Below are positions 38,527 through 64,000 of a stretch of DNA of 64,000 bases, one piece after another. The DNA is from Cryobacterium luteum (GTDB lineage: Bacteria; Actinomycetota; Actinomycetes; Actinomycetales; Microbacteriaceae), in the NCBI RefSeq assembly GCF_900110125.1, contig NZ_FOCN01000008.1, positions 62,001-126,000 on the forward strand, in the 5' to 3' direction. Position numbers and translations under genes: made by a program. A model generated the notes under the pieces. That model did not search any database. It worked only from the letters and a program-made list of their open reading frames with translations, and was not told the DNA's origin. The number at the start of each line of letters is the position of its first letter. Position 1 is the first letter of the stretch.

Positions 38527-38558
38527 CCGCCAGCCCAACGCTACGGCTGGGTCGGCGG
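38527..38558. terminator. Hairpin between convergent S4 and csrA genes
   Basis: CCAGCC at 38530-38535 pairs with GGCTGG at 38545-38550, and outer CCGCC/GGCGG can extend the stem. It covers the 15-bp space between the two stop codons and the end of csrA. No T run, so the terminator call is tentative. Confidence 0.4.
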
Positions 38559-38849
38559 CAGGGCGGGCCGGGGTCGGGCTTCGGCCTGCGACTGGCGGGA
38601 CTGGGCCGATTGCAGCGCCGCGAGCATTCCGAGGGATTTCTTGATGCGGTCTTCGGCGTCATCGTCGATCTGACTGGCCGCCATGTTGGCCTCGGTGACC
38701 GCCCGCACGACCTCGTCGCGCTGGATCTTCACGCCGCGAGGCGCATCGATGCCGATGCGCACACTGTCGCCGCGGGCGTCGAGCACGGTGATGACGATGT
38801 CGTCACCGATGAGGATCTTTTCCCCCGGTTTGCGTGTCAGAACGAGCAT
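38541..38849 (-). CDS. csrA: Carbon storage regulator CsrA with C-terminal extension
   Basis: CsrA dimers bind GGA motifs in mRNA leaders and alter translation or stability. The core is intact: MLVLTRKPGEKILIGDDIVI, with Leu4 and Arg44 (KIQRDEVV) at the RNA-binding positions of the E. coli protein. At 102 residues it is longer than the usual 60-75, through an acidic helix and a Gln/Ala/Pro-rich tail. It is the last gene of the flagellar cluster, nine bases after the flhF-like gene. No fliW gene lies in the window. Likely targets are the fliC and flgB leaders. Confidence 0.94.
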   Translation of the reverse strand: MLVLTRKPGEKILIGDDIVITVLDARGDSVRIGIDAPRGVKIQRDEVVRAVTEANMAASQIDDDAEDRIKKSLGMLAALQSAQSRQSQAEARPRPALPPTQP

Positions 38850-60750: not shown

Positions 60751-61168
60751 CGCTCAGGCTCGGAACCGGAGCCGGCGCGGCCGGAAGCATCTCGGCCGCT
60801 TCGTGCCAGGTGAGCCGCAGCGGCTCGAGCAGCGCGATGCACTCGTGGGTGCGGGCCGGGTCGCGGTGCGTGTTGGCGCTGACCATGGCGGTCGAGACAT
60901 AGGTATAGAGGGAGAAGAGCCCCTCGCCGCCGTCCCAGGCGTCGACATTGAGCGAGGTGCTCAGCTCCGACACGATGGCCTGGGCGTGAATCAAATTGTC
61001 TGACGCCATCTGCCAGTCCTGGCGCTGCTGGGCGGCTTCGGCCCGGTTCAGGTCGAGCAGCAGGCGGTCGTAGAGCATGGTGAGCAGGCGCACCGGGGTG
61101 GCCGAGAGAACGGCGTCGCGGTTGTAGCGCGAGCGCTGAGCGTTGGTTCCCATTGTCATAGTCATCAT
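60731..61168 (-). CDS. fliS: Flagellin export chaperone FliS
   Basis: FliS binds the C-terminus of flagellin and prevents early polymerisation. The 145-residue protein has the family segment SATPVRLLTMLYDRLLLDLN, then a helix with DNLIHAQAIVSELSTSLNVD and the GLFSLYTYVSTAMVSAN stretch. ATG overlaps the fliD stop (ATGA). Confidence 0.93.
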   Translation of the reverse strand: MMTMTMGTNAQRSRYNRDAVLSATPVRLLTMLYDRLLLDLNRAEAAQQRQDWQMASDNLIHAQAIVSELSTSLNVDAWDGGEGLFSLYTYVSTAMVSANTHRDPARTHECIALLEPLRLTWHEAAEMLPAAPAPVPSLSGELGIG

Positions 61169-62541
61169 TTTCCGTTGGAGGCGTTGAGGCCCTCGACCTG
61201 GGCGGTGAGCCAGGCCGACTGGGCATTCAGGTTACTGAGCTGAACCTCCATAGAGGCGTAGGTGCGTTCCAGGCTGGCCCGTCGGGAGACGAGGCGCAGG
61301 TCCCAGCTGTCGATTTGGGTGCCGAGGCTCTTGACCAGGCTTTCCTGGCCGGTGATCTTGCCGGTGATCATGCCGTCGTACTTATCCGAGGCGCTCGTGG
61401 CCGCGGAGGCGACGCGCGAGGAGATCTCGCTCAGCACCGACTTCACGAACGCGGGATCACTTTTCATGGCGGCGGCGAACTTGTCGGCGTCGAATTCCAG
61501 GGTGCCGGTCTTGGTGATGCTGATGCCGATCTCGCTCGGCGAGCGGCCGCCGACCGGGTATGACGCCGCTTCGAGAATCTTCTGCTTCACGTCCCGCACG
61601 GTGCTGTCTCCGGTGAAGACACCGCCAGAGATCACGGCTTTGCCGGAGCTGTCGGTGCTGTTGACCACGGCGGACTTCGTGGAAATCAACGCGAAGAGCG
61701 AGTTGAGCGAATCGACGAGGGTCTTGGCGATGGTGCTGACCGCAGCGTCGTCCCGGCTGACGCTCACCGTGACCGGGTCGGTCGACACGGCGGATACCGT
61801 GACCGCGACGCCGGGCAGCAGGTCGGCAAACGTGTTCGTCGACGAAGTGATTGCCTGCTCGGCGGCGGTTCCCTTCCAGAGGGTGATCGAGGCGTCCTGG
61901 GCGGTGCGGATGACGGCGGCGCCGGGGGCGGTGAGCAGGTTGGTCGAGGTGCCGCCGTCCACCATGGCGGAGGTTCCCGCGTGCAGGGCGAAAGCGCCGG
62001 CCAGTCCGGTTTCGCCGGCGACAAGCTGCAGGCGGTACTGCGTGACGCCGTCAACGCTGCCGGAGGCGATCTTGGTGGCGGTGATTCCGGCATCCGCCGT
62101 GTTGATGGCGCTGACCACGTCGTCGAGCGAGGTACTGGCGGAAGTGATTGTCGTCTTGGCGCCGTTGCTCGCGACGAGGGTGTAATCGACGGTCGGCGCC
62201 ACGCTCATGGCGGCGGTGACTCCGGACTGGGCCTGGGCGAGCTGGGTCACGACGAGGTCGAGCGAGCCGGAGGTGGCGCTGGTCGATGCCGAAGTGGTGA
62301 CCATCGACGAGCTGCTCTTTGCCGTATAGAGGTTGAGGGAGTCGGCGGTGACGCTCTTGTTGGCGAGGGTGGCGAGCGAGGCAACGGTGCTGTTCAGGCT
62401 CTGGAGCGCCGTCGTCAGAGTGTTCGAGGCGGTGACCTTGGCCTTGAGCAGCGTTTGCGGCCCGGCCTCGAGCGTCATGAGGGAATTGATCAGCGCGGTG
62501 GTGTCCATGCCGCTGATCAGGCCATCGACTGCGAGAGACAT
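61165..62541 (-). CDS. fliD: Flagellar filament cap protein FliD
   Basis: FliD caps the growing filament and folds flagellin into place. The 458-residue protein starts SLAVDGLISGMDTTALINSL, has a Ser/Thr/Ala-rich middle region and ends with the helical FliD C-terminal domain (SDKYDGMITGKITGQESLVK, then SLERTYASMEVQLSNL). AAGGA precedes the ATG. It follows fliC after a terminator; no clear promoter of its own was seen. Confidence 0.94.
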   Translation of the reverse strand: MSLAVDGLISGMDTTALINSLMTLEAGPQTLLKAKVTASNTLTTALQSLNSTVASLATLANKSVTADSLNLYTAKSSSSMVTTSASTSATSGSLDLVVTQLAQAQSGVTAAMSVAPTVDYTLVASNGAKTTITSASTSLDDVVSAINTADAGITATKIASGSVDGVTQYRLQLVAGETGLAGAFALHAGTSAMVDGGTSTNLLTAPGAAVIRTAQDASITLWKGTAAEQAITSSTNTFADLLPGVAVTVSAVSTDPVTVSVSRDDAAVSTIAKTLVDSLNSLFALISTKSAVVNSTDSSGKAVISGGVFTGDSTVRDVKQKILEAASYPVGGRSPSEIGISITKTGTLEFDADKFAAAMKSDPAFVKSVLSEISSRVASAATSASDKYDGMITGKITGQESLVKSLGTQIDSWDLRLVSRRASLERTYASMEVQLSNLNAQSAWLTAQVEGLNASNGK

Positions 62542-62723: not shown

Positions 62724-63863
62724 TTACTGGAGGAGCTGCAGAACGCCCGAGTTGCTCTGGTTCGCCTGCGCGAGCATGGCGGTACCGGCCTGCGACAGGA
62801 TGTTCGCACGGGTGTACTTGACCATCTCTTCAGCCATGTCGGTGTCGCGAATACGCGATCCGGCAGCGGTGAGGTTTTCCTTCGACACGGCCAGGTTCTT
62901 GATGACGCTCTCGAACCGGTTCTGCTGAGCACCGAGGTCGGCGCGTTCGCTCGAGATGGTCTTGATTTTGTCCGTCAGAGTGATGATCGCCGCGGCCGCA
63001 CCTGTTGCGGAAGTGAAGTCCAAGCTAGAAGTTCCAACTTGTGCGCCGGTCGGAGTTCCAGTCGCGAAGCCGGCCGCGCTCGGCACTCCTGTCCCAACCG
63101 CTCCACCGGTCGTCGACTCAACGACGAGTGCGCCCGCGACAACGCTCGCCTTCAAGTTGGACGAGAATTTCGCGTTCTCGTTGAGGGCGGCAGCGAACTG
63201 TGTCACGTTCGCAAAAGTACCCGCAACGCCCAAGTTATCCGTGGTGACCGTCGTGCTGGAGGAGTCCGCGTTCGCAACTGTGAACGTCTGCACGCCCGCC
63301 ACGAGCGCAGCGTTCGCATCACTGAGAGCGAACGTTGTGTGCGCCGGCGTGTTGGCCAGTGAAGTCGCGATGCTCGCGACGTCAGCAAGATCAACGACGA
63401 TGCTGTCACCGCTGTTTGCGCCGATCTGGAAGCTCATCGAACTGCCCTTGAGCAGATCCGTACCGTTAAAGTTCGTGCTCGAGCCGATTCGCGATAGCTC
63501 TTTGGTCAGAGCAGTCGCTTCGGTGGTGATCGCCTCACGCGATTCCGAACTGTTCGAGTCGTTACCGGCCTGAACGGCGAGGTCGCGCATACGCTGCAGG
63601 ATTGAGGTGGCCTCGTTGAGCGAACCTTCAGCAGTCTGGATGACGCTGATGGCGTCCTGGGCGTTGCGGCTGGCGACCGTGAGGCCGCCGACCTGCGACT
63701 TCAGGCCTTCGGAGATTGCGAGGCCGGCTGCGTCATCCGCTGCACGGTTGATGCGAAGGCCACTGGAGAGCTTCTCCAACGACTTCGACAGGTCGTTCTG
63801 TGTTGCTGCCAGGTTGCGGTACGCGTTGTTTGCCGCGACGTTGGTATTTACCTGCATGCCCAT
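62724..63863 (-). CDS. fliC: Flagellin
   Basis: This is the filament subunit. The 379-residue protein has the conserved D0/D1 N-terminus (MQVNTNVAANNAYRNLAATQ, then KSLEKLSSGLRINRAADDAA) and C-terminus (RIRDTDMAEEMVKYTRANIL, then AMLAQANQSNSGVLQLLQ). The central region, roughly 63000-63350, is variable, Ser/Thr/Val/Ala-rich and lower in GC. Start ATG has GGAGG seven bases upstream. Its 5' leader holds a GGA hairpin and a sigma-28-type promoter. Only one flagellin gene lies in the window. Confidence 0.97.
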   Translation of the reverse strand: MGMQVNTNVAANNAYRNLAATQNDLSKSLEKLSSGLRINRAADDAAGLAISEGLKSQVGGLTVASRNAQDAISVIQTAEGSLNEATSILQRMRDLAVQAGNDSNSSESREAITTEATALTKELSRIGSSTNFNGTDLLKGSSMSFQIGANSGDSIVVDLADVASIATSLANTPAHTTFALSDANAALVAGVQTFTVANADSSSTTVTTDNLGVAGTFANVTQFAAALNENAKFSSNLKASVVAGALVVESTTGGAVGTGVPSAAGFATGTPTGAQVGTSSLDFTSATGAAAAIITLTDKIKTISSERADLGAQQNRFESVIKNLAVSKENLTAAGSRIRDTDMAEEMVKYTRANILSQAGTAMLAQANQSNSGVLQLLQ

Positions 63864-63872
63864 GATGAATCC

Positions 63873-63877
63873 TCCGT
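63873..63877 (-). promoter_or_regulatory. ANGGA overlapping the fliC Shine-Dalgarno (CsrA site candidate)
   Basis: Minus strand ACGGA runs into GGAGG, so CsrA bound here would cover the ribosome binding site. Alone this is weak evidence because many Shine-Dalgarnos contain ANGGA; with the upstream hairpin it forms a pair. Confidence 0.45.
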
Positions 63878-63893
63878 GATTGGGTCAAAGTAC

Positions 63894-63915
63894 GCCGGCC
63901 CATCCATGGGCCAGC
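63894..63915 (-). promoter_or_regulatory. GGA-tetraloop hairpin at the 5' end of the fliC mRNA (CsrA site candidate)
   Basis: Minus strand: GCTGGCCCA, loop TGGA, TGGGCCGGC; nine pairs including one G-U. The loop with its closing pair reads AUGGAU, matching the CsrA core ANGGA displayed in a hairpin loop. It begins about two bases from the predicted transcript start. Confidence 0.65.
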
Positions 63916-63923
63916 ACCATGAG

Positions 63924-63950
63924 CTATCGACCGATTGCGATAGCGGGTTA
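63924..63950 (-). promoter_or_regulatory. Sigma-28 (FliA/WhiG)-type promoter before fliC
   Basis: Minus strand: TAACCCGC, 11 nt, GTCGATAG. The TAAC and CGATAG parts and the spacing are shared with the promoters of flgB and fliM. Predicted leader length is about 54 nt. Confidence 0.78.
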
Positions 63951-64000
63951 GAAATCCGGGTGAACTGATTTCGACATTGCAGCGCACCCAGCCGACTCGT

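Follow-up and report, generated by a model that had tools for sequence, protein, structure and literature searches.

A putative two-site CsrA operator in the flagellin leader of Cryobacterium luteum and its relatives

Control of flagellin by CsrA and FliW is known from Bacillus and Campylobacter. The leader of the flagellin gene hag of Bacillus subtilis contains two CsrA sites, one of them over the Shine-Dalgarno (SD) sequence (PMC2587704, PMC7652899, PMC6070490). The flaA leader of Campylobacter jejuni likewise has two sites, with GGA in CANGGANG-type hairpin loops and FliW as the antagonist (PMC4894983, PMC6692469). A high-affinity hairpin that tethers the CsrA dimer, which then bridges to the SD sequence, has been described for glgC of Escherichia coli (PMC7652899); this resembles the arrangement proposed here, but glgC is another gene, and the antagonists in E. 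coli are the CsrB and CsrC RNAs. Among actinobacteria, the 2008 genome paper of Kineococcus radiotolerans located csrA in the motility island, matched 9 of 12 bases in the SD region of fliC to the BS2 site of hag, proposed on the basis of this SD site that CsrA controls fliC, and mentioned csrA near the flagellar genes of Leifsonia xyli; the available part of that paper names only the SD site, with neither a hairpin nor a cross-species comparison (PMC2587704). It has also been suggested that FliW may regulate CsrA in Actinobacteria (PMC4682653), and both proteins were among the flagellar proteins searched in another study (PMC10746217).

In the open-access literature, the sole match for CsrA together with Cryobacterium was, by its title, on Mycobacterium small proteins. 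No paper was found there on CsrA, flagellin and Microbacteriaceae, the family that includes L. xyli, and the available texts held no mention of the hairpin reported below or of its order-wide covariation. The idea of CsrA control of fliC is partly in print and its kind is known; new are the hairpin with its covariation and wide occurrence, a copy ahead of a mini-flagellin gene behind fliA, and a conserved leader that lacks a normal flagellin open reading frame and lies before fliD in at least five relatives. The original prediction had known of no such control in the family; its novelty stands for the hairpin but not for actinobacterial flagellin control by CsrA as such, given the 2008 proposal from the Kineococcus SD site and the csrA gene beside the L. 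xyli flagellar genes (PMC2587704). The present findings would extend CsrA-FliW control of flagellin from Bacillus and Campylobacter to the motile members of a large actinobacterial order.

The window, the 64,000-nucleotide stretch that was analyzed, comprises bases 62001-126000 of contig 72 in a draft genome of 3.83 Mb. The flagellin gene fliC (62724-63863, minus strand) encodes a protein of 379 residues, whose nearest named relatives are from Cryobacterium strains (85% and 79%). The next gene downstream (61165-62541, minus strand) is fliD-like, matching FliD models with scores under their cut-offs. Read on the minus strand, the fliC leader consists of CTAACCC, 12 nt, the −10-like GGTCGATAG, 8 nt, a hairpin, 14 nt and TCACGGAGGATTCATC-ATG, and the hairpin context reads GGTCGATAG CTCATGGT GCTGGCCCA-TGGA-TGGGCCGGC. 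The first two of these elements resemble a sigma28 promoter. The −35 box lies at 63945-63951, and CTAAC was also seen by eye upstream in many other leaders; the −10 box lies at 63924-63932, compared with a sigma28 consensus of GCCGATAA, and a CCGAT-like box recurs in relatives. A FliA/WhiG-family sigma gene is located just outside the window (L065:566-1399), its match falling below the cut-off of the model. With the start site predicted from these boxes, the fliC mRNA would begin at the hairpin.

The original prediction had described a 9-bp hairpin with a UGGA loop and the core AUGGAU, together with a second ANGGA over the SD sequence, and both were found in place. The hairpin occupies 63894-63915 (minus strand) with the stem GCUGGCCCA/UGGGCCGGC and the core CAUGGAUG, and its stem comprises eight Watson-Crick pairs and one U-G pair, extendable by two G-U pairs. 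It is matched at 63890-63919 by R1, a model built from the covariation alignment A1 described below, with a score of 35.3 bits, the window itself being in the training set. The UGGA loop spans 63903-63906, and its GGA (63903-63905) is kept in relatives, where GGA is part of the search motif. The loop plus its closing bases reads CANGGANG, which agrees with the RsmE/CsrA consensus (A/U)CANGGANG(U/A) as quoted in PMC6692469. The SD sequence GGAGGA (63870-63875) is overlapped by the second site, CACGGA (63873-63878, with ACGGA at 63873-63877), which appears as CANGGA in relatives. A further short element, ACCCA, was noted at 63881-63885, shortly 5′ of the SD sequence; it recurs in many genus and family leaders and has no obvious pairing partner. 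The likeness to hag is one of site layout. Bridging by a CsrA dimer has a working range of intersite distances that is wider than its optimum. The distance from the loop GGA to the SD GGA is 30 nt here, compared with a published optimum of 18 nt and with 21 nt in C. jejuni flaA, where two hexaloops are adjacent instead of one hairpin being paired with one SD site (PMC4894983).

The csrA gene (38541-38849, minus strand; 102 residues) matches the NCBIfam CsrA model above its cut-off. Its top PDB match is chain 5dmb_D (E 1.4e-13), from the entry of a CsrA-FliW complex. The RNA-contact residues L4, R6, R44 and E46 are all in place, which bears out what had been stated for Leu4 and Arg44. N55 is also present by position, a residue required for FliW binding as judged from the N55D variant of CsrA (PMC6529632). 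The genome also encodes FliW, with a Pfam match above its cut-off at G000:C72:130635-130982 and NCBIfam FliW matches below theirs, so that csrA, fliW and a FliA-type sigma gene occur in one genome. Both csrA and fliW are present in B. subtilis as in the window genome, but they are coupled genes in the former (PMC6529632) and about 30 kb apart in the latter.

From this arrangement, the fliC leader was interpreted as a two-site CsrA translational operator relieved by FliW, with a probability of about 0.85, and CsrA probably throttles flagellin production much as in Bacillus and Campylobacter. We infer the start site, the binding of CsrA, the direction of control and the FliW feedback as follows. 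FliA (sigma28) polymerase would begin the fliC message beside the hairpin, and a CsrA dimer would place one face on the CANGGANG loop and the other on the SD-overlapping ANGGA, which would deny access to the 30S subunit and keep flagellin synthesis low. FliW, whose gene lies behind flgK-flgL, would bind CsrA and release the message, and intracellular flagellin would in turn bind FliW and restore repression.

The major data supporting this interpretation were comparative. Flagellin matches were collected from 57 genus, 398 family, 396 order and 396 phylum genomes, in overlapping samples, and the leaders obtained cover 50 of the 51 fliC-positive genus genomes and 76 of the 92 order genomes outside the family that have fliC (E < 1e-20). 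The core motif, [CG]CA[CT]GGANG[GC] sought between −85 and −28, was counted over 251 distinct parsed leaders, with two misread family rows left out. It was present in all 57 leaders from the genus, in 93/96 from the family and in 66/71 from the order, compared with 0.4-0.8% of mononucleotide scrambles, and in 3 of the 25 other phylum leaders. The 24 loci missed by the parser contained it in 15/15 from the family and order and in 2/9 from elsewhere, where two gave no start and one looks misplaced. The total within genus, family and order is 231 of 239 fliC leaders, in a sample where some genomes contribute several leaders and genera are unevenly represented. The eight without the core (L108, L116, L190, L193, L222, L245, L249 and L264) have variant GGA hairpins by eye. 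A chance origin of the fliC hairpin was ruled out by the scrambled leaders and the relatives. In 80 named loci, partly from the same genomes, the core was found 5′ of the aligned start in 74, at least five of which (L287, L288, L295, L296 and L352) are mini-flagellin rather than fliC starts; five of the six misses lacked a start codon where the alignment placed it (L289, L291, L314, L348 and L361), and the sixth, from Amorphoplanes (L338), reads CTCACGGACGGG. Three deeper phylum members (L137, L142 and L280) show by eye a different GGA hairpin, GGCAAGGAAGCC, close to the start of flagellin.

A strict detector of contiguous GGA-loop stems of at least 5 pairs found them in 48/57 leaders of the genus, 58/98 of the family, 50/71 of the order and 15/25 of the phylum, with some of the stems located at the SD sequence, compared with 7-13% of dinucleotide shuffles. 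The element is less visible to this detector because stem position 4 is often mismatched. The fourth pair from the loop was non-standard in 31 of 93 family leaders (A-G 16, A-A 10, C-A 3, G-A 2), as if a weak point there were tolerated or preferred. A search with the pattern GCCAYGGAYGG was uninformative, since it gave 15 matches versus 14 in the control and misses the window fliC, which has CCCA. No Rfam family matched the fliC leader element in the search performed, and the element is consistent enough for a curated RNA family, with exact mutations defined.

Covariation was assessed in A1, an alignment of 106 dissimilar windows with a ten-pair stem, against 500 shuffles, which ignore relatedness, and against slid stems, which allow for it. 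The stem score was 0.392, compared with 0.137 ± 0.011 for shuffled and 0.059-0.107 for slid controls; standard pairs filled 79.7% of the stem cells (63.9% when shuffled), and two-sided changes numbered 156 (54 when shuffled). Each of these three values was reached by 0/500 shuffles. Two-sided changes affected 7 of the 10 pairs, which is not above the shuffles (mean 6.8; 412/500 reach 7). Pairs 2 and 3 are always C-G, and several standard pair types are found in pairs 4 to 10. In A1, the loop and the inner pairs are invariant by construction because both are in the selection motif; pairs 1 to 3 are accordingly largely fixed and pairs 4 to 10 free. Since the folding energy of single leaders was unremarkable (z −1.08; also −1.27, −0.87 and 0.29), the case for the hairpin is a comparative one. 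At 9 to 11 bp, the stem exceeds that of most E. coli CsrA SELEX winners, which had four or fewer contiguous pairs (PMC7652899), and the C. jejuni SELEX sites sat on long stems (PMC6692469). The first loop base is mostly U or C, while the SELEX preference was A/G in E. coli and A/U in C. jejuni. Another helix, GCUCAUGGU/AUCAUGGGC, was set aside, its 5′ half lying at or before the predicted start site.

The second site and the promoter spacing were also kept in relatives. In 226 of 251 leaders, CAN stood directly before the first GGA of the last 25 nt, compared with 2 of 33 automatically chosen gene starts elsewhere in the window, a rough control. In 165 of 219 leaders, a CCGAT-like box starts 24 or 25 nt 5′ of the loop GGA, and in 15 no such box was found; the hairpin thus has a near-fixed position behind a sigma28-type box.

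The distribution of csrA is consistent with the same interpretation. Within the genus, csrA was found in 53 of 57 genomes, including all 51 with fliC, and fliW in 52 of 57, including 50 of the 51, the exception (G043) being a 270-contig draft. Across the order, csrA was found in 97 of 100 fliC-positive genomes versus 6 of 296 others, where fliC-positive means E < 1e-20 and six weaker matches were placed among the negatives. All three exceptions (G475, G565 and G597) are drafts of 570 to 1060 contigs, and leaders from two of them (L259 and L254) retain the hairpin. A further 79 of 80 fliC-positive genomes (30 family, 50 phylum; G292 is also in the order set) have csrA. No natural knock-out, that is, a well-assembled fliC-positive genome lacking csrA, was found in the order. 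Because csrA sits in the flagellar cluster in the window genome, this co-occurrence may reflect joint inheritance rather than control, and beyond the order the core is rare although csrA is present. In the alignment of relatives that the original prediction had named as a check, the hairpin and its GGA were kept in nearly all leaders of the genus, family and order, and the stem covaried around the GGA; together with csrA in nearly all fliC-positive genomes, this supports CsrA-type control as a prediction. Some gene arrangements were also noted: among deeper phylum members, csrA lies approximately 250-260 nt upstream of fliC in G863, G907, G950 and G1014; one genus genome has csrA and fliW adjacent without a detectable fliC (L066, G049:C22:413000-416000); and another has a fliW match with neither fliC nor csrA detectable (L067, G022:C1).

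Among 150 scored of 1154 candidates in the window genome, R1 gave two clear sites, fliC (E 5.5e-6) and a 118-residue mini-flagellin (E 5.7e-4), the next listed being at 0.4. In the genus, some of whose leaders trained R1, 50 of 51 fliC-positive genomes had a match at E ≤ 0.0015, compared with a best of 0.0028 in the six without fliC; the remaining fliC-positive genome (G045) has its flagellin at a contig end. An R1 match inside flgK (L065:2410-2439, 22.6 bits), absent from the listed genome-wide matches, was rejected as a target, as it lies within coding sequence and is probably due to chance. Fifteen other genus matches (L413-L427) were likewise not accepted, as their genes were not identified and fliC-less genomes give matches of like strength; four of these (L413, L415, L420 and L421) represent a single recurring site within an open frame, also present in G042, which has no csrA. 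Two of the matches (L416 and L424, in G003 and G040) are hairpins located 49-50 nt 5′ of the same 123-residue open reading frame, with an SD sequence, and this is a possible non-flagellar CsrA target. For GGA-hairpin clusters of the CsrB/RsmZ sponge type, the R1 matches in the window genome were single hairpins only, again with 150 of 1154 candidates scored.

The mini-flagellin gene (L065:141-497 = G000:C72:126141-126497, minus strand) lies just to the right of the window and keeps mainly the two flagellin ends. It starts 68 nt after the fliA stop codon, and its own CsrA-type hairpin is in that gap, where no sigma28 −10 box of its own was visible; the hairpin and SD sequence are of the same type as in fliC. 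In nine copies compared (113-123 residues), the median Ka/Ks was 0.115, and the hairpin and TCACGGAAGA were kept in all nine leaders. In B. subtilis, flagellin is recognised by FliW through its N-terminal 72 residues and by FliS at its C terminus (PMC6070490), so that a role of the mini-flagellin in binding FliW or FliS is conceivable.

The mini-flagellin copy bears on two other explanations of the fliC element. The hairpin could be a DNA operator for a transcription factor next to the promoter, as it is an imperfect palindrome whose opposite strand scores 15.2 bits with R1 and whose distance to the −10 box is near-fixed. However, the arms vary in sequence and still pair, many of the pairs being G-U, which would be meaningless in DNA, and the mini-flagellin copy has the hairpin and SD sequence but shows no such promoter, which makes a DNA operator barely credible. 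It could instead be a 5′-terminal hairpin that only shields the abundant flagellin mRNA from decay or aids initiation, with no part for CsrA. Its place at the predicted 5′ end and the covarying stem would suit this function, but a stability function would not call for a CANGGANG loop or for the same CANGGA at the SD sequence, and the element also occurs between fliA and the mini-flagellin with no visible promoter box. This explanation is considered very unlikely.

The folding data raise a further alternative, a two-state leader in which the 5′ arm (GCCCAUG) has two competing partners, the local 3′ arm and the start codon (CAUGGGC), the choice being made by CsrA or temperature, and in which CsrA could also activate. 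Because of this second pairing, the hairpin probability in the predicted mRNA of the window species is only 0.25 and the alternative fold outweighs it; the median AUG pairing in the genus is 0.73. This low probability, like the long stem, counts against the CsrA operator. The hairpin had a probability above 0.5 in only 29/57 genus leaders but in 74/93 family and 60/66 order leaders; against a two-state leader, it dominates outside the genus with medians of 0.91 (family) and 0.99 (order). Covariation between the arm and the start codon was not noticed by eye, and the local hairpin would presumably form first in transcription. A two-state leader is thus deemed unlikely, and the FliW-relieved CsrA operator was retained as the preferred interpretation.

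Leader copies were also found before fliD. In at least five genus genomes (G011, G019, G034, G036 and G037), the hairpin and GTTCA[TC]GGAGGA, together with sigma28-type boxes, lie 279-315 nt before fliD without a normal flagellin open reading frame (L408, L409, L410, L411 and L412). Pairwise identity among these copies was highest in the hairpin (0.953), followed by the SD block (0.892) and the promoter block (0.824), compared with 0.64 at the fourfold sites in the first 110 codons of the neighboring fliD, and these higher values point to constraint on the RNA. That this is a former flagellin leader now serving as a CsrA decoy or a fliD regulator is a tentative and rather doubtful proposal. 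As a decoy, the FliA-made RNA would titrate CsrA late in assembly; the flaA leader of C. jejuni titrates CsrA while still coding (PMC4894983). The copies before the mini-flagellin and fliD suggest how such leaders spread and that they may be reused. An ATG follows the leader only in G011, with ATT or ATC in four of the five, and translation from ATT or ATC may occur; the frame that follows in these copies is flagellin-like and only 47-56 codons long.
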